Below are positions 2,065-9,292 of a DNA stretch of 35,427 nucleotides, in pieces; within the stretch, counting starts at the first letter, position 1, and the number at the start of each line of letters is the position of its first letter. The DNA is taken from assembly GCA_903847975.1 (NCBI GenBank), contig CAINFC010000324.1, forward strand, positions 1-35,427, read 5' to 3'. Below the pieces are notes generated by a model, which searched no databases, was not told the origin of the DNA, and saw only the letters and a list, made by a program, of their open reading frames with translations. Source of the stretch: an uncultured Acidobacteriota bacterium. GTDB lineage: Bacteria; Acidobacteriota; UBA6911; CAINFC01. The translations under genes were made by a program, and so were the position numbers.

Positions 2065-3588
2065 ATGTCCAGCAACTTCAATCCCGGGGCTTTCTTCATT
2101 GCCACCTTAAAGGACGGCGAGCGGAAGTACTTTAAGAACCTGTTCCAGAAGGCAAGGGCTGCCGGATACAGCCGATTCGTGGAACCGTGCGCCGGGGCGT
2201 TCGCCATGTCGCATCTGGCTGCCCAAGCCGGGTGGAAGACAACGGAAATCAGCGCAAGCGATGTCACCCTATTCACCTCGGTGATGGGGTACGCGATTAC
2301 CGGGGAATCCCTGGGACCGTTCGGCATTACCGCGGACGGTTACGAAAACGAAGATTTGACCGACCCTGCGACGGTGCTATGGGTTCAGCTCTGCCTGCGG
2401 ACATCCATGAAGGCGGGGCATATGTTTTTCTATGACATGCTGACGGACCTGCATCGCAGGAAAGAGAAGCACATTGAAAAGATCCGCGGGCAATTGGATC
2501 GCGCCCAAAAAGTGCTGGGCGGCATGCAATACCGGCCGCTCTGTCTATGGAAGCATCTGGATGAGTGCCTGGATGACCCTAAAGCAATTGTCGTGATCAA
2601 TCCGCCAACCTATGCCGCCGGGTTCGAGAAATGGTACGACACAGGGAACCGGCTCCGGTGGAAGGAACCGGAATACGCGATATTCGATCCTGTGGAGGGA
2701 ATGCGCCTGTTGGGGGAAAAGGCAAACGCTGCCAAGGCCTTGGTTCTCTGTTACGAACAATCCCGGCCTGGGGAAACTGCATGTGCGCCTGTTTTCGGAA
2801 GGGCAGCCAATCGGGACGGACTGAATGCCTATTTGACCGCCAACCGGGAAGAGGAAGTGAAATCCCTGGCCAACGGCGGCGGCGTTTTGTGGGCGGAGGG
2901 CAACGACCTCCAGCCTCTTGATTATCCAATCTTGCCGCAGGAGCACCCCATTACCGCCGACAGCACCCTAAACCTATTCGTTGTTCCTTCCAAGAATGCT
3001 ACGTATTACCGGAAACTGTTGACCCACGGCTTTGTGGGCTCCAGGTGTTCCTGCAACCTGGTCCTGCTGATCGATGGATACGTAGCCGGTGTTCTGGGGT
3101 ATGACGTGGCTGCTCTGACGATAGGAGCTTTTGGCGGGCAGCAGGAGGATGCCCTATTCATAATGTACGCCATGACGGTACCGAGAAGCGATCTCCGTTT
3201 GGTCCGACTGCTGAAAATGCTGGCATTAAATAAGTGCTATTACCGCCTGGCGGTGAACGATTTGATCCTGGAAAAAGTGAAAATCATCAAGACTGTGGTC
3301 ATGACCCGAAAGCCGGAAGCAAAGGGGATGCGGGGGATCATGAAGCTGGTCGGAAAGAACCCCGACCGAAAGACCGGGGGTTACCGGTTGACCTATGTCG
3401 CCCCGGCCCAGGACCGAACCCCGACGGAAATTCTAAAGGCATGGTTGGAAGATGAAAACAAATTGGCCTTCGCCAGAAAACAGGATGAGCGACGGAATGA
3501 GAAAGAGAGAAAGAAAGAAGAATGGAGAGCCAAGAAAGCCTTGAACCCGACATTCCACAAAAGGGAATCGACGTCGGTAGTGGCCTGA
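2065..3588 (+). CDS. phage DNA adenine-methyltransferase-like protein with long C-terminal extension
   Basis: The 507-residue protein starts with a SAM-dependent N6-adenine methyltransferase-like half. Residues 39-46 (VEPCAGAF) resemble motif I, the SAM-binding loop of D12-class enzymes, and residues 179-182 (NPPT) resemble catalytic motif IV, usually DPPY or NPPY. Phages use such enzymes to modify their DNA against host restriction. The C-terminal half (about residues 300-450) is not a normal part of these methylases. A predicted alternation of strands and helices with the segment NLVLLIDGYVAGVLGYD hints at a GNAT-like fold, as in the Mu Mom DNA-modifying protein, but this is only inference. 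The tail after residue 465 is highly charged. The start codon has no good ribosome binding site. The end overlaps the next gene by 67 bases. Confidence 0.7.
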   Translation: MSSNFNPGAFFIATLKDGERKYFKNLFQKARAAGYSRFVEPCAGAFAMSHLAAQAGWKTTEISASDVTLFTSVMGYAITGESLGPFGITADGYENEDLTDPATVLWVQLCLRTSMKAGHMFFYDMLTDLHRRKEKHIEKIRGQLDRAQKVLGGMQYRPLCLWKHLDECLDDPKAIVVINPPTYAAGFEKWYDTGNRLRWKEPEYAIFDPVEGMRLLGEKANAAKALVLCYEQSRPGETACAPVFGRAANRDGLNAYLTANREEEVKSLANGGGVLWAEGNDLQPLDYPILPQEHPITADSTLNLFVVPSKNATYYRKLLTHGFVGSRCSCNLVLLIDGYVAGVLGYDVAALTIGAFGGQQEDALFIMYAMTVPRSDLRLVRLLKMLALNKCYYRLAVNDLILEKVKIIKTVVMTRKPEAKGMRGIMKLVGKNPDRKTGGYRLTYVAPAQDRTPTEILKAWLEDENKLAFARKQDERRNEKERKKEEWRAKKALNPTFHKRESTSVVA

Positions 3589-4502
3589 AGATCGCGCGGG
3601 TTTCGGTGAACGATTTGCAGGAGCAGGATCTGAATGCCCGATTCATGAAGGACAATATGTTCAAGCAACTTGTCGCCAACATACGGTCCCGGGGATCCCT
3701 GGAGAGTTTGCCGTTTTGCGCGTTGGTGAACGGACGGATCGAAATCGTTTCCGGCCACCACCGGGTTCGCGCGGCGAAGGAGGCCGGGTTGACGGACATC
3801 CACATTTTACTGGACGAATCCGGGCTCACCAGGTCGCAGGTTGCGGCAAAACAGATCGCCCACAACGCCATATCGGGCCAGGACGATCCGGGGATTTTAC
3901 GCGAATTGGCCAAGATCATAACCGACGTGGACGACATGCTCGAAAGTTTTGTCGGGCATGAAATCATGGAAAAGCCCACTGCGGACCTGGACACCCTGAT
4001 CGCTCCCCGGGTGGATTACGACTGGAAGGAGATTTCGTTCATATTCCTGGAATATCAGCTCCGCGACCTGGAAAAACTCATCAAGGAGCTGGAGGGCAAG
4101 GATTTGGTCGGCGCCGTCCCGATGGAGGTCTTTGAAAAGTTTGCCAATGCGCTGAACAAATACAGCAAATTCAAGGACATTAAAAACGTCGGATCGGCTG
4201 TACACGCCATGGCGGAGACCATTTCCAAGGAACTGGCGGTGAGTGGCTTCGAGGAGGATGGCGAACTGCAATGGGTTCCGCTGGCCAAGATATTCGGCAC
4301 GGCGAGTGTCCCGAAAGAATCGGCTGAGATCATTAAGGAAGGGCTGAAGAAAATGAAGCGTGACGGGCACGTGGGACGCAAAAACGGATGGCAGGCCATC
4401 GAATACTGGGCGGCGGATTACCTGGGCTCCCAGGCGCTGAGCGGAACGGGACCGGTGGATTCCGCCGTTGAGCCACAGAAAAACGATGGAATCGACCGGT
4501 AA
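3522..4502 (+). CDS. ParB-like nuclease-domain protein
   Basis: This 326-residue protein has an N-terminal ParB/sulfiredoxin-type domain. Residues 20-110 contain the NGRIEIVSGHHRVRAAKEAG block typical of ParBc domains (the GxxR region), preceded by the usual 'act on these sites' strand. Stand-alone ParB-like proteins are common in phages next to DNA methyltransferases and terminases, where they are thought to bind or nick DNA rather than partition plasmids. The C-terminal two thirds has no recognised domain and looks helical. The ATG follows a purine-rich AGAAAGAAAGAAG inside the end of the methyltransferase gene, so the two are translationally linked. The palindromes directly after it are possible binding sites. 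Function beyond DNA binding is unknown. Confidence 0.75.
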   Translation: MESQESLEPDIPQKGIDVGSGLKIARVSVNDLQEQDLNARFMKDNMFKQLVANIRSRGSLESLPFCALVNGRIEIVSGHHRVRAAKEAGLTDIHILLDESGLTRSQVAAKQIAHNAISGQDDPGILRELAKIITDVDDMLESFVGHEIMEKPTADLDTLIAPRVDYDWKEISFIFLEYQLRDLEKLIKELEGKDLVGAVPMEVFEKFANALNKYSKFKDIKNVGSAVHAMAETISKELAVSGFEEDGELQWVPLAKIFGTASVPKESAEIIKEGLKKMKRDGHVGRKNGWQAIEYWAADYLGSQALSGTGPVDSAVEPQKNDGIDR

Positions 4503-4667: not shown

Positions 4668-5342
4668 ATGGCAAACACGATCAAGATCGACTGGGTGGAA
4701 GCCCGGATAAAGTATGAAGCCGGGGAAACCCAAAAGGCAATCGCGGAGATGTTTGGCGTTTCCAGGGCAGCGGTCCAAAAGCATATCGAGGCAGAAGGTT
4801 GGACTCAGGACCTCAGCAAATCCATCCGTCAGCAGGCCCAGGCCAAAGTATTCGGGGTGACCGAACCCCGCGACGCGGAGAAGACCGCCAAGGCGATATC
4901 GGAGTACGGGCAAAAGATAGCCGACCTGATCGAGGGGTTCAAGAAGGAATGGTCCGTTGTCGGCTCGTTCTGGGGTGACGCCCTCAAAACCGCCCAGCAG
5001 GACCCGGACCTGGGGTTCACGAAGCTCAAGGTTACCAAGATATCGGCCGAAATCCTGACGATGAAGCAGGCCGGGGAGCGGAGAGCTTGGCGTATCGACG
5101 AAATGGAAAAGCAGGAATCCGTGGTACAGCAAACCGTCAACAGCACCAACCATATCACCGTGAAGAAGGATGTCCGCAACTGGGCGGAGCTGAGGGAGCT
5201 GAAGCGGATGGCCATGGATGATGCGGTGCGTCGCCAAAACGGCGAGAACCCTTACGCGGAAAGGGAGTCCGATGGGGCTGACCTGATATCGGATGATGTG
5301 GTCGTTGAGGGAGCGGTGAATGGCGAAGAGATATCCATCTAA
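4668..5342 (+). CDS. terS: terminase small subunit
   Basis: The 224-residue protein begins with a helix-turn-helix. Residues 8-45 include KYEAGETQKAIAEMFGVSRA, the DNA-recognition fold of small terminases of the Terminase_2 type. Its place directly before the large subunit supports the call. The small subunit binds the packaging start site on phage DNA and regulates the large subunit's ATPase and nuclease. The middle is helical, which fits oligomerisation into a ring. The ATG is preceded by AAAGGAAA at a long spacing of about 12 bases. The two palindromes just upstream are natural candidates for its DNA target. The gene ends 12 bases before the large-subunit start. Confidence 0.85.
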   Translation: MANTIKIDWVEARIKYEAGETQKAIAEMFGVSRAAVQKHIEAEGWTQDLSKSIRQQAQAKVFGVTEPRDAEKTAKAISEYGQKIADLIEGFKKEWSVVGSFWGDALKTAQQDPDLGFTKLKVTKISAEILTMKQAGERRAWRIDEMEKQESVVQQTVNSTNHITVKKDVRNWAELRELKRMAMDDAVRRQNGENPYAERESDGADLISDDVVVEGAVNGEEISI

Positions 5343-5354
5343 CGGGGCGAGGCA

Positions 5355-7880
5355 GTGACTGCAAAAGGATACCTTTCCTATGAGGAACAGCTTGAAACGC
5401 TTGAGGCCGAGTTCCTGGAAGAAACCGTTTACAGCAACAAGTACATCCCGATTGATCCTTTCCCAAAGCAGGCCCTGTTCCTGTCTCAGGTTGATAAGGA
5501 ATTGCTTTACGGAGGAGCAGGTTCGGGCGGTAAAGAGGCCCAGCTTGATACGCTCATCCCTACGCCAAATGGATGGAAGGAGCTGAGAGACGTCCATCCC
5601 GGTGATTATGTGTTCGGGCGCGATGGTAAGGTTCATGTTGTCCTTTACGAGTCCGAAGTGCACGACGTGCCCGGATGGAGGTTCACGTTTGATGACGGGG
5701 CGACGGTGGTCACGAACGATGAGCACCTATGGCTTACATTCACGGAAGCTGAACGATCCCAGTTGCTAAAAAGAACGGATGCCTATCGAGAGCGCAGGCG
5801 AGCCGGCAGGCCGTCGCGTTCGGCAATTGGATCAAGGAATGGCCTAAACCATACAATCGAGCATAGGCAATTCCTATCCAGAGTAATGACGGAGCGGAAC
5901 AAAGGGAACAGGTCAAGGGTGCTGCCTGTCCCAACTGGAACCGTAAGGACCACAGGAGAAATCGTAGGAACTCTGCTGACGAATAGGGGACAAGCAAACC
6001 ACTCCATCCCGGTCGCGGAGCCAATGGATCTGCCGGAAAAGGAATTGCCGCTCGACCCGTATGTTTTAGGGGCATGGCTTGGAAATGGGTCGAAAGGATC
6101 CAGCCAAATATGTACGATGGATCTGGAGTTGGTTCAAGAGGTTTGTAAGGCAGGGTTTGAGGTAACGTCCTTGGCCCCCACGTGCGATAGTAGGAAGTGT
6201 TGGTCTTACCATTTCAAACGGCTCATCACCGTCTTACGGTCAATGGGTCTATATGACCATAAGCACATCCCGAAAGATTACCTATGGGCGTCTAAGGATC
6301 AGCGCCTAGCGCTCCTCCAGGGGCTAATGGACACAGACGGACATGCGTTATCCAATGGTAAGGTTGAGTTTTGTAATACCAACCGAAACATAGCTGAAGG
6401 GGTGGTTCATTTAATCCGTTCTCTCGGGATGAAAGCAACCATACGGGGAGGGCGTGCTAAGTTGTATGGTGTCGATTACGGTCCTAAGTGGACCGTGAAA
6501 TACACGGCTCATCTGCCGGTATTCAGGATCCCCCGGAGGTTGTCCCGACTGAAAATACCGGCTAGCCCGAAAACATATTTCCGGCGTATTGTGAATGCGG
6601 AAAGAGTCTCGCCGGTCCCGATGAAATGCCTGCGGGTGTCATCCGATGATAGCCTGTTCCTGGTAACGGAGCATTTCATCCCGACGCACAATACGGCAGG
6701 ACTTCTCGCCGCGGCTTTGCAGTTTGTGCACATCCCCGGTTACACCGCGCTGCTGCTTCGCCGCACGTTTTCGGATCTGGAAAAGCCGAAATCGCTCATG
6801 CACCTCTCGCACCTGTGGCTCGACAGCACCAACGCCAGGTGGAACGGCAACCGGCACGCCTGGACCTTTCCTTCGCAAGCCATGGTGTGTTTCGGATATC
6901 TACAAAATGCCGGTGACCGGCTCCAATACCGGTCGGCCGAGTACCAGTTTATCGGCTTCGATGAAGTAACCGAGTTCGAGCGGGACGATTACCTGTATTT
7001 GTTCACCCGGCTGCGCAGAACCAACACCACCCCGGTTCCGCTGCGGATGCGCTGCGGAACAAATCCGGGCGGTCCCGGCCACGAATGGGTGTATCACCGG
7101 TTCATTAATCCCGGCCACCGGGACCGGATGTACATCAAGGCGACGATTGACGATAACCCCCACGTCAGCACGGATGAATACGAGGAATCGCTCTCCGAAG
7201 TGGACCCGGTACTCTACGCGCAGATGCGTAATGGGGACTGGGCGGCCAAACCGTCCGGCGCCTTCTTTGATCGGACCTGGGTGGGGATGATCAACCGGAC
7301 CCAGGTGCCACCGGTTATTCCGCGACTGGTAAGGTTTTGGGATTGCGCGGCCACGAAGGATGCCGGCTGCTACACGGTCGGCACTCTCATGGGGCGGCTT
7401 GACCGGACCATCGAGATTCCGGTACCGGCGGATGCTCCGAAAGGAGCCAAACCAAAGAAGGCGATTCGCTCCACCTACTACGTCCTGGATGTGGTCCGGG
7501 AACAGGTCGGACCGGCCGAGGTTGAGGAACTGATGTATGCCACGGCCAGGAGGGACGGCCCGGGGGTGAAGATCCGCATGGAGGAAGAAGGCGGTTCCAG
7601 CGGGAAGATCGTGGTCAGCACCTATGGCAGCGTGATGCAGGGTTTCGATTTCGACGGCGTCCGGGCGACCGGCCCCAAACCGGCCCGCTGGGCGCCCTTT
7701 CTGAATGCGTGCCGGAAAGGAACCGTGCTTGTGGTGCGGGCCGAGTGGAACGAAAACTGGATTCGGGAACTGGAAGGGCTGCCGACGAGCCGATACAAGG
7801 ACCAGGCCGACAGCGCCGCCGGAGCTTACCAGGACTTGGTGTTCGGTAGATCCATCGGCGACTATGGGATAACGGTTTAA
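5355..7880 (+). CDS. terL: terminase large subunit containing an intein
   Basis: The 841-residue precursor becomes a 455-residue protein after removal of the intein (residues 61-446). The spliced protein has the packaging motor's ATPase. Walker A is GGAGSGGK (residues 53-60) joined to Thr447. Walker B is FIGFDE with Asp536 and Glu537 in precursor numbering. The coupling segment is RCGTNPGGPGHEWV. The C-terminal RNase H-like nuclease starts with RFWDCAATKDAGCY and ends with DQADSAAGAYQDLVFG, the usual acidic-residue positions. It translocates DNA into the prohead through the portal and cuts it. Start is GTG at 5355 with a GGGGCGAGG site. The portal gene begins six bases after the stop. Without splicing the ATP-binding loop is broken, so packaging should depend on the intein. 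Confidence 0.95.
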   Translation: MTAKGYLSYEEQLETLEAEFLEETVYSNKYIPIDPFPKQALFLSQVDKELLYGGAGSGGKEAQLDTLIPTPNGWKELRDVHPGDYVFGRDGKVHVVLYESEVHDVPGWRFTFDDGATVVTNDEHLWLTFTEAERSQLLKRTDAYRERRRAGRPSRSAIGSRNGLNHTIEHRQFLSRVMTERNKGNRSRVLPVPTGTVRTTGEIVGTLLTNRGQANHSIPVAEPMDLPEKELPLDPYVLGAWLGNGSKGSSQICTMDLELVQEVCKAGFEVTSLAPTCDSRKCWSYHFKRLITVLRSMGLYDHKHIPKDYLWASKDQRLALLQGLMDTDGHALSNGKVEFCNTNRNIAEGVVHLIRSLGMKATIRGGRAKLYGVDYGPKWTVKYTAHLPVFRIPRRLSRLKIPASPKTYFRRIVNAERVSPVPMKCLRVSSDDSLFLVTEHFIPTHNTAGLLAAALQFVHIPGYTALLLRRTFSDLEKPKSLMHLSHLWLDSTNARWNGNRHAWTFPSQAMVCFGYLQNAGDRLQYRSAEYQFIGFDEVTEFERDDYLYLFTRLRRTNTTPVPLRMRCGTNPGGPGHEWVYHRFINPGHRDRMYIKATIDDNPHVSTDEYEESLSEVDPVLYAQMRNGDWAAKPSGAFFDRTWVGMINRTQVPPVIPRLVRFWDCAATKDAGCYTVGTLMGRLDRTIEIPVPADAPKGAKPKKAIRSTYYVLDVVREQVGPAEVEELMYATARRDGPGVKIRMEEEGGSSGKIVVSTYGSVMQGFDFDGVRATGPKPARWAPFLNACRKGTVLVVRAEWNENWIRELEGLPTSRYKDQADSAAGAYQDLVFGRSIGDYGITV
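5535..6692 (+). other. intein in terminase, class 3 (Trp-Cys-Thr) signature, degenerate LAGLIDADG endonuclease
   Basis: The inserted 386 residues split Walker A exactly between Lys60 and Thr447. The intein begins with Glu rather than the usual Cys or Ser and ends in His-Asn before Thr. It carries Trp126 in the HLW of block B, Cys425 in block F and Thr447 as the +1 residue. These are the residues known to define class 3 inteins, which splice from the internal Cys. The middle is a LAGLIDADG homing endonuclease: motif 1 is VLGAWLGNG (residues 237-245) and motif 2 is LLQGLMDTDG (320-329). In motif 1 the catalytic Asp appears to be Asn244, so cutting may be lost. Codon use looks less GC-rich than the flanking terminase, with more AGG, ATA and CTA, which suggests late arrival. 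Confidence 0.9.
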
Positions 7881-7885
7881 AAGAA

Positions 7886-9292
7886 ATGTTCGAACGACTA
7901 AAGCATTGGATGACTTTTGCGCGGACCGCGGCACCGGCGACAGACCCGGCAACCGCTCTTATTTTCCCCGGCTGGCGCTCCGCCAATCCGCTCCCCGGCG
8001 GGAAAGACTACATGGCCTTCGCCAACGAGGGTTTCAAGAAGAACGTCATCATTTTCGCTTGTATCCGCGAACGCTTCAACGCCCTTTCCGAACCGGACCT
8101 AATTGTTCGGCAAACCACCCGGACGAACCGCAATGCCGGACCGCTTCCCGACTCCGAGGTAATTCAGAACACGGCACACCCGCTTGTGGCCCTACTGGAT
8201 AAACCGAACCCGAACCTTTCGCAGACCGAGTTGCTGCAAACCATTCTCATGCACCTGGATATCTTCGGGAATACCTACTTGCACAAGGTGAGAAGCTCGG
8301 TGGGGCAAACGATCCAGTTATGGCCCCTGCACCCTTCCCGAATCGAGATCAAGGCCAACACATCCGGCACTGTGGAATCGTTCCGATACAAGATCGATGA
8401 AAAGTACACCGATATTCCCGCGACCGATATTATCCATTTCAAGTACCCTAACCCGTGGGATGATTTCTACGGCCTGTCGCCTATGGAAGTCCTGGCGAGG
8501 TGCGGCGACCTGGATAATAGCGCTGTGGATTACCTGCGGGCCTTCTTTACCAACGCGGCCGTGCCGCAAGGGATATTGAAGGTGAAGGTTGGAAACCCCG
8601 ATAAAGAGGCACGGGAGCGAATCCAGCGGGAGTTTGGGGACAAATACGCCGGGAAGGCCGGGTGGCATCGCCCCGCCGTCCTGACCGATGACGTCGATTA
8701 TCAGCGGATCGGCTCCAGTCTTTCCGATTTGGACCTGACCCGGATATTCGGAGTATCCGAGTCTCGGATATGCAGCACGTACGGCGTACCGCCCATACTG
8801 ATTGCCGCTGCCGTAGGGCTGGCCCGTTCCACGTACAACAATTTCGCCGAATCCCGCAAGGCTTTCTGGCAACAGACCCTGACACCTCTCTACACCTTCA
8901 TTTCCGATAGACTGACGGCAGGACTCGCGGAAGAGTTTGAAACGGACCGGCGGAAAATCTATATCGAGTTCGATTATTCGGACGTGGGGCCTTTGCAGGA
9001 ATCGCAGGATTCGCTTCGCGGCTATGCCCTGAATTGCTGGAACTCCGGGTTGATGACCAAGAACGAAGCCCGGTCCCTGGTGAAGCTGCCTGAAACGGAT
9101 AACGGCGATATCTTCAAACAGGCCCAGAGCGATGTGTTTATAGGCGAAGACGATATGCCGGGTGAGATCCCGCCGCCGGACGAAGAGGGCGACGATACGG
9201 TTGACGGGGAGTTGGTTGATGAGAAGGAGCAAAGAAAAATCCCGGCACGCTCGGAGGTAGCGACGCGGTTTCCCTTTCGAGCGGTCTCTTAA
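7886..9292 (+). CDS. phage portal protein (HK97/Phage_portal family)
   Basis: The 468-residue protein fits the Phage_portal family in length and content. Residues 45-60 (FKKNVIIFACIRERFNALS) are the conserved start of the wing, followed by HPLVALLDKPNPNLSQTELLQ, then IIHFKYPNPWDDFYGLSPMEVL, and later GVPPILIAAAVGLARSTYNNFAESRKAFW near the stem and crown. Twelve copies form the ring through which terminase pumps DNA and to which the tail connectors attach. The C-terminus is acidic and low in complexity (PPPDEEGDDTVDGELVDEKE). ATG follows the terminase stop by five bases. The following minor head gene has an unclear start close to this stop. Confidence 0.93.
   Translation: MFERLKHWMTFARTAAPATDPATALIFPGWRSANPLPGGKDYMAFANEGFKKNVIIFACIRERFNALSEPDLIVRQTTRTNRNAGPLPDSEVIQNTAHPLVALLDKPNPNLSQTELLQTILMHLDIFGNTYLHKVRSSVGQTIQLWPLHPSRIEIKANTSGTVESFRYKIDEKYTDIPATDIIHFKYPNPWDDFYGLSPMEVLARCGDLDNSAVDYLRAFFTNAAVPQGILKVKVGNPDKEARERIQREFGDKYAGKAGWHRPAVLTDDVDYQRIGSSLSDLDLTRIFGVSESRICSTYGVPPILIAAAVGLARSTYNNFAESRKAFWQQTLTPLYTFISDRLTAGLAEEFETDRRKIYIEFDYSDVGPLQESQDSLRGYALNCWNSGLMTKNEARSLVKLPETDNGDIFKQAQSDVFIGEDDMPGEIPPPDEEGDDTVDGELVDEKEQRKIPARSEVATRFPFRAVS

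Follow-up and report, generated by a model that had tools for sequence, protein, structure and literature searches.

A phage-type terminase large subunit (TerL) gene is interrupted in its Walker A loop by a 386-residue insert, and we regard it as highly probable that this insert is a class 3 intein at the TerL1-a site, which would splice by a route that starts at Cys425, has probably lost its endonuclease activity and gives no sign of regulation. That a class 3 intein splits the TerL Walker A loop had been proposed in an earlier note on this DNA, and motif, alignment, predicted fold and relatives with an empty site all agree with the proposal. The window, meaning the whole stretch of DNA analysed (35,427 nucleotides), carries the features listed in Table 1.

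Table 1. Features of the terminase gene, its intein and its immediate neighbours in the window
Feature	Coordinates	Strand	Supporting match or comparison
Terminase small subunit, directly 5' of the TerL gene	4668..5342	+	PHROG 1206, 1.8e-10
TerL precursor, 841 aa (exteins 1-60 and 447-841 plus intein)	5355..7880	+	PHROG 979, Terminase_6N, Terminase_6C, TIGR01630
N-extein, residues 1-60, ending in Walker A Lys60 (GGAGSGGK)	5355..5534	+	Uninterrupted GGAAAGGKT in L095/L096
Class 3 intein, 386 aa (Glu61-Asn446), Hint splicing domain interrupted by a LAGLIDADG endonuclease domain	5535..6692	+	
N-terminal half of the intein splicing domain (blocks A and B), lacking Cys/Ser at its first residue; His124 B:10, Trp126 B:12 (NDEHLW)	5535..5735	+	
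LAGLIDADG homing endonuclease domain, about residues 227-406	6033..6572	+	PF14528 1.4e-7, PF05204 5.5e-5, I-Tsp061I (2dch)
Codon 244, AAT (Asn), block C	6084..6086	+	Asp in 64/67 aligned inteins
Intein C-terminal blocks F and G; Cys425 F:4 (PMKC), Thr444 G:5, His445 G:6, Asn446 G:7	6618..6692	+	Numbering of PMC5222942
C-extein, residues 447-841, starting with +1 Thr447 of Walker A; remaining ATPase and nuclease	6693..7880	+	
Portal protein, directly 3' of the TerL gene	7886..9292	+	PHROG 12, 9e-71

The interrupted terminase gene

The TerL gene starts with GTG and is a single open frame with no internal stop. Residues 447-841 match the terminase large subunit family PHROG 979 (7e-75) as well as TIGR01630 psiM2_ORF9, Terminase_6N and Terminase_6C. 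Judging from sequence, the gene belongs to a phage or prophage; its contig is part of a genome assembly and carries no evidence of phage activity.

The window is one complete contig (C324) of a genome of 8.13 Mb in 326 contigs. At its start lies an IS110-family transposase gene (21-1049), and this insertion sequence may have broken the assembly here. Further along, a phage DAM-like domain (PF22555) is fused to a phage GNAT-like domain (PF22559) in a gene at 2065-3588, possibly encoding a phage DNA-modification protein, that overlaps a ParB_N gene at 3522-4502.

Within the Walker A motif GGAGSGGK/T of TerL (slashes mark splice junctions), Lys60 and Thr447 are parted by the 386 residues Glu61-Asn446 at 5535-6692, and the earlier note had both the coordinates and the residues right. 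The precursor reads LLYGGAGSGGK60 / E61AQLDTLIPTP...FIPTHN446 / T447AGLLAAALQFV. Among C-extein relatives in viral contigs the P-loop is mostly uninterrupted, with the Lys adjoining a Thr or Ser. The two closest by C-extein, L095 and L096 (45% identity), are intein-free and read FYGGAAAGGK/TEAILMAALQYVH, compared with LYGGAGSGGK/.../TAGLLAAALQFVH across the junctions of the window, and their empty site, GGAAAGGK/T, fixes both splice junctions of the window intein. Residues 60 and 446 (Lys and Asn) differ from each other, as do residues 61 and 447 (Glu and Thr), so that a shift of the junctions is impossible. As previously claimed, the insert begins with a Glu (Glu61) and has no N-terminal Cys or Ser nucleophile.

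We reject an assembly artefact as the source of the insert, because the reading frame stays open and the arrangement recurs in independent contigs.

Assignment to class 3

Compared by sequence with the Protein Data Bank, the insert finds the class 3 DnaB inteins 6rix, 6bs8 and 6riy as its top matches (2e-11 to 1e-10), with a weaker match to gp41-1 (1e-5). Together with the alignment below and the intein-free relatives, these matches put the arrangement far beyond chance. Trp126, in NDEHLW, aligns with Trp B:12 of 6rix and 6bs8, and Cys425, in PMKCLRV, with Cys124 and Cys118 of these two, respectively.

Together with 66 inteins found on other contigs (65 viral contigs and one of a MAG), the window intein forms an alignment of 67 sequences that runs over its full length. 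His124, Trp126, Cys425, Thr444, His445 and Asn446 (His64, Trp66, Cys365, Thr384, His385 and Asn386 in intein numbering) are invariant throughout. The Trp count of 67/67 is partly built in, as H-x-W was present in one of the two search patterns, whereas Cys F:4 was absent from every pattern and its 67/67 count is independent of them. Ala, Leu and Met predominate at position 1, which is Glu in the window. In a wider set of 97 loci nearly every +1 residue is Ser or Thr; the window has Thr447. A DxxH arrangement is usual at B:7-B:10 in class 3 inteins; B:7 is Asn in the window, which speaks against the assignment, but this position varies in the set of 67, being Asp in 31, Cys in 14, Asn in 6 and His in 6. 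The window intein thus combines the absence of Cys or Ser at residue 1 with Trp B:12, Cys F:4, THN at G:5-G:7 and a Ser/Thr +1 residue, the features by which class 3 inteins are recognised.

The class 3 WCT signature consists of Trp B:12, Cys F:4 and Thr G:5, followed by His G:6, Asn G:7 and the +1 residue G:8 (PMC5222942), and in the structure of the M. chimaera intein the signature Thr completes a Cys-His-Thr triad (PMC7664689). The earlier note had named Trp126 (HLW), Cys425 (block F) and +1 Thr447, all of which are confirmed in the reading frame, and had suggested alignment with class 3 inteins at Trp B:12, Cys F:4 and Thr G:5, where all three match and position 1 is neither Cys nor Ser. 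It had also counted Thr447 in the Trp-Cys-Thr set; the set is indeed complete, but the signature Thr is Thr444 (G:5, in THN) and Thr447 is G:8.

The predicted fold points the same way. In an AlphaFold2 model with a mean pLDDT of 94.5, the splicing domain superimposes with 124 of 125 residues on that of the class 3 Msm DnaB1 intein (6bs8_C; 1.4 A, Z 20.6), and this is the closest splicing-domain structure among the Foldseek matches listed, ahead of class 1 splicing domains. The assignment by fold compares the splicing-domain matches in that list; in the overall ranking PI-SceI and archaeal full-length inteins come out on top because they have the endonuclease in common with the model. Between them, sequence and model give good support to class 3.

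A probably inactive homing endonuclease

I-Tsp061I (2dch) aligns with intein residues 167-346 of the model. Block C of the endonuclease reads LGAWLGNG, with Asn244 in the place of the first catalytic Asp, while block E reads GLMDTDG and keeps Asp328. An active LAGLIDADG endonuclease has two catalytic acids, one in each motif, and in this domain the one of block C is missing. In PI-SceI, I-CreI and similar enzymes both acids are needed, and losing one abolishes or strongly impairs double-strand cleavage. A literature search for D218N, a change of the block C acid of PI-SceI, found nothing. Homing cleavage, by which the endonuclease would have spread the intein, has probably been lost through D244N, a change that the earlier note does not mention, nor does it mention the endonuclease; owing to this probable loss the window intein is now likely to be inherited vertically.

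Asn occupies the block C position in 3 of the 67 aligned inteins, namely the window, L080 and L063, and the same Asp to Asn change in the latter two suggests repeated inactivation of the endonuclease by this substitution. Elsewhere in the same genome, C92:10154-10582 (L164) weakly matches the endonuclease part of the intein alignment (E 2e-6).

Proposed splicing and its consequence

By analogy with class 3 inteins that have the same residues, splicing of the window intein would begin with an attack on the Lys60-Glu61 peptide bond by Cys425 (F:4), held by His124 (B:10) and Thr444 (G:5). The N-extein would be taken onto Cys425 as a thioester, forming a first branched intermediate, and then be taken over by the +1 residue Thr447 in a second. 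Cyclisation of Asn446 would release the intein and an acyl shift would join Lys60 to Thr447, giving a predicted TerL of 455 residues whose Walker A loop reads GGAGSGGKT. DNA packaging very likely requires this splicing, as the precursor keeps the Lys and Thr of Walker A 386 residues apart.

It is conceivable that the D244N change marks an intein in more general decay, in which splicing too is gone and terminase and phage are defective; endonuclease decay often precedes loss of the entire element. We consider this very unlikely, as every residue needed for class 3 splicing is intact, the 841-codon frame is open with an extein recognisable from end to end, and the splicing and endonuclease active sites are separate.

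A switch, by which packaging would wait until Cys425 is reduced or metal-free and TerL activity would become redox-dependent, has a precedent within class 3: in Msm DnaBi1 the catalytic Cys118 forms a disulfide with Cys48 that acts as a redox switch, and H2O2 reversibly inhibits splicing (PMC6195587). The P-loop position would likewise mean that the ATPase is gated by splicing. The partner of the catalytic Cys is, however, missing from the window intein, where the position of Msm Cys48 is Gly107 (intein residue 47), and Cys occurs there in just 27 of the 67 aligned inteins; the window intein thus lacks the second Cys of a switch of the Msm DnaBi1 type. The earlier note had argued for redox control through a single Cys, for which nothing in the sequence speaks, and its picture of one Cys at stake does not hold, as the intein has six; the five besides Cys425 sit in the endonuclease region and are mostly unconserved in the alignment. 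Moreover, others tested five TerL-type inteins from different or neighbouring sites, TerL1-b among them, and these spliced readily (PMC5050341). Cys425 could possibly form a disulfide with another intein Cys or bind a metal; a switch of this kind is nevertheless highly improbable, and no evidence points to regulated splicing of the window intein. Exceedingly improbable, in our estimate, is that an intein without endonuclease mobility (D244N) has been retained in this phage for a role in which splicing sets the time or the conditions at which the packaging ATPase is activated.

We see next to no prospect for membership of class 1 or class 2, with an odd start and the nucleophile elsewhere, even though Thr447 could attack the N-junction directly in the manner of class 2 and the class 1 intein gp41-1 likewise ends in THN (PMC12245125). 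Position 1 is Glu between junctions that cannot be moved (residue 60 is not Asn, nor 61 Thr). Trp B:12 and Cys F:4, both found in the window intein, occur in every aligned intein, and the nearest solved splicing domains, by fold and by sequence, are class 3.

Origin and distribution

The class 3 intein of the window is 55% identical to the intein of the viral contig locus L060, while the C-extein of L060 is only 39% identical to that of the window. Third codon positions have a GC fraction of 0.58 in the intein versus 0.75 in the C-extein, and inteins are scattered over the TerL tree, requiring no fewer than 6 changes on the best tree, of which well-supported branches force 3. The identity mismatch, the GC gap and the scattered distribution together suggest that this TerL lineage acquired its intein horizontally. 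In the C-extein tree the window is sister to the intein-free L095/L096 (support 98/93), and it is possible that the intein was lost in these rather than gained in the window lineage.

A scan of genome contigs for the intein yielded a single relative (L005), in a Thermomicrobiales MAG, which lies in another terminase and not at the K/T point of the P-loop. No close TerL was found across 100 relative genomes, which thus offered no empty allele from the same genus, and a whole-genome search of the window's own genome returned one class 3 intein, that of the window.

With the window, the class 3 inteins of the TerL P-loop gain a well-bounded example from a psiM2-like terminase lineage; knowledge of class 3 splicing stays unchanged. 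The intein-free sister lineage and the probably dead endonuclease allow this example to serve in studies of intein persistence once mobility is lost.

Comparison with known systems

Class 3 inteins at the K/T point of the TerL P-loop are already known from many other phages. Site TerL1-a lies between the invariant Lys and Thr of this loop and holds published TerL inteins; of the TerL inteins tested in the same study, two had endonuclease activity (PMC5050341). The window insert occupies this site (GGAGSGGK60/T447), which is empty in L095.

Mycobacteriophage Eureka gp8 (L008) shares with the window the TerL P-loop K/T site and the arrangement GK/A...H-W, Cys F:4 and THN/T, and its intein is about 33% identical to the window intein over the full length (tblastn). 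Its TerL belongs to another lineage, however, as the window C-extein gives no match to L008 and resembles psiM2 TerL, and its endonuclease acid is intact (Asp) where the window has Asn. The inteins of IMG/VR loci L060, L015, L017/L001, L016, L018 and L020 agree with the window in insertion point and residues and are 50-55% identical to its intein, but their C-exteins are about 37-42% identical, their +1 residue is Ser and their block C Asp is intact.

Further inserts occur among terminases. L019 and L057, TerL ORFs of 1170 aa, apparently contain two inteins, a class 3 intein at the P-loop and a second near C-extein residue 81 (RYKG/PLAPDTEV...VVWTGN/SEFQF), which has a Trp after HT in block B, a Cys in VYCLTV and a TGN end rather than THN. 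In the terminase of Brevibacterium phage Cantare (L012) the P-loop is intact and a different insert sits at about this downstream point (YKLQ/CYTDDHD...HVSGN/SAEYQF); it starts with Cys, yet HTMW and MVYC are also present.

The mycobacterial class 3 DnaB1 inteins (Msm 6bs8, M. chimaera 6rix/6riy) have the same Hint domain and His-Trp-Cys-Thr-His-Asn residues as the window intein (rmsd 1.4-1.9 A, 34% identity). They differ from it in being mini-inteins without an endonuclease, and Msm DnaBi1 has Cys48 for its redox disulfide where the window has Gly. On the extein side, the TerL of Methanobacterium phage psiM2 is 38% identical to the window over the C-extein, and the window matches TIGR01630 psiM2_ORF9; psiM2 TerL is intein-free and its GGAAGGGKS is uninterrupted.
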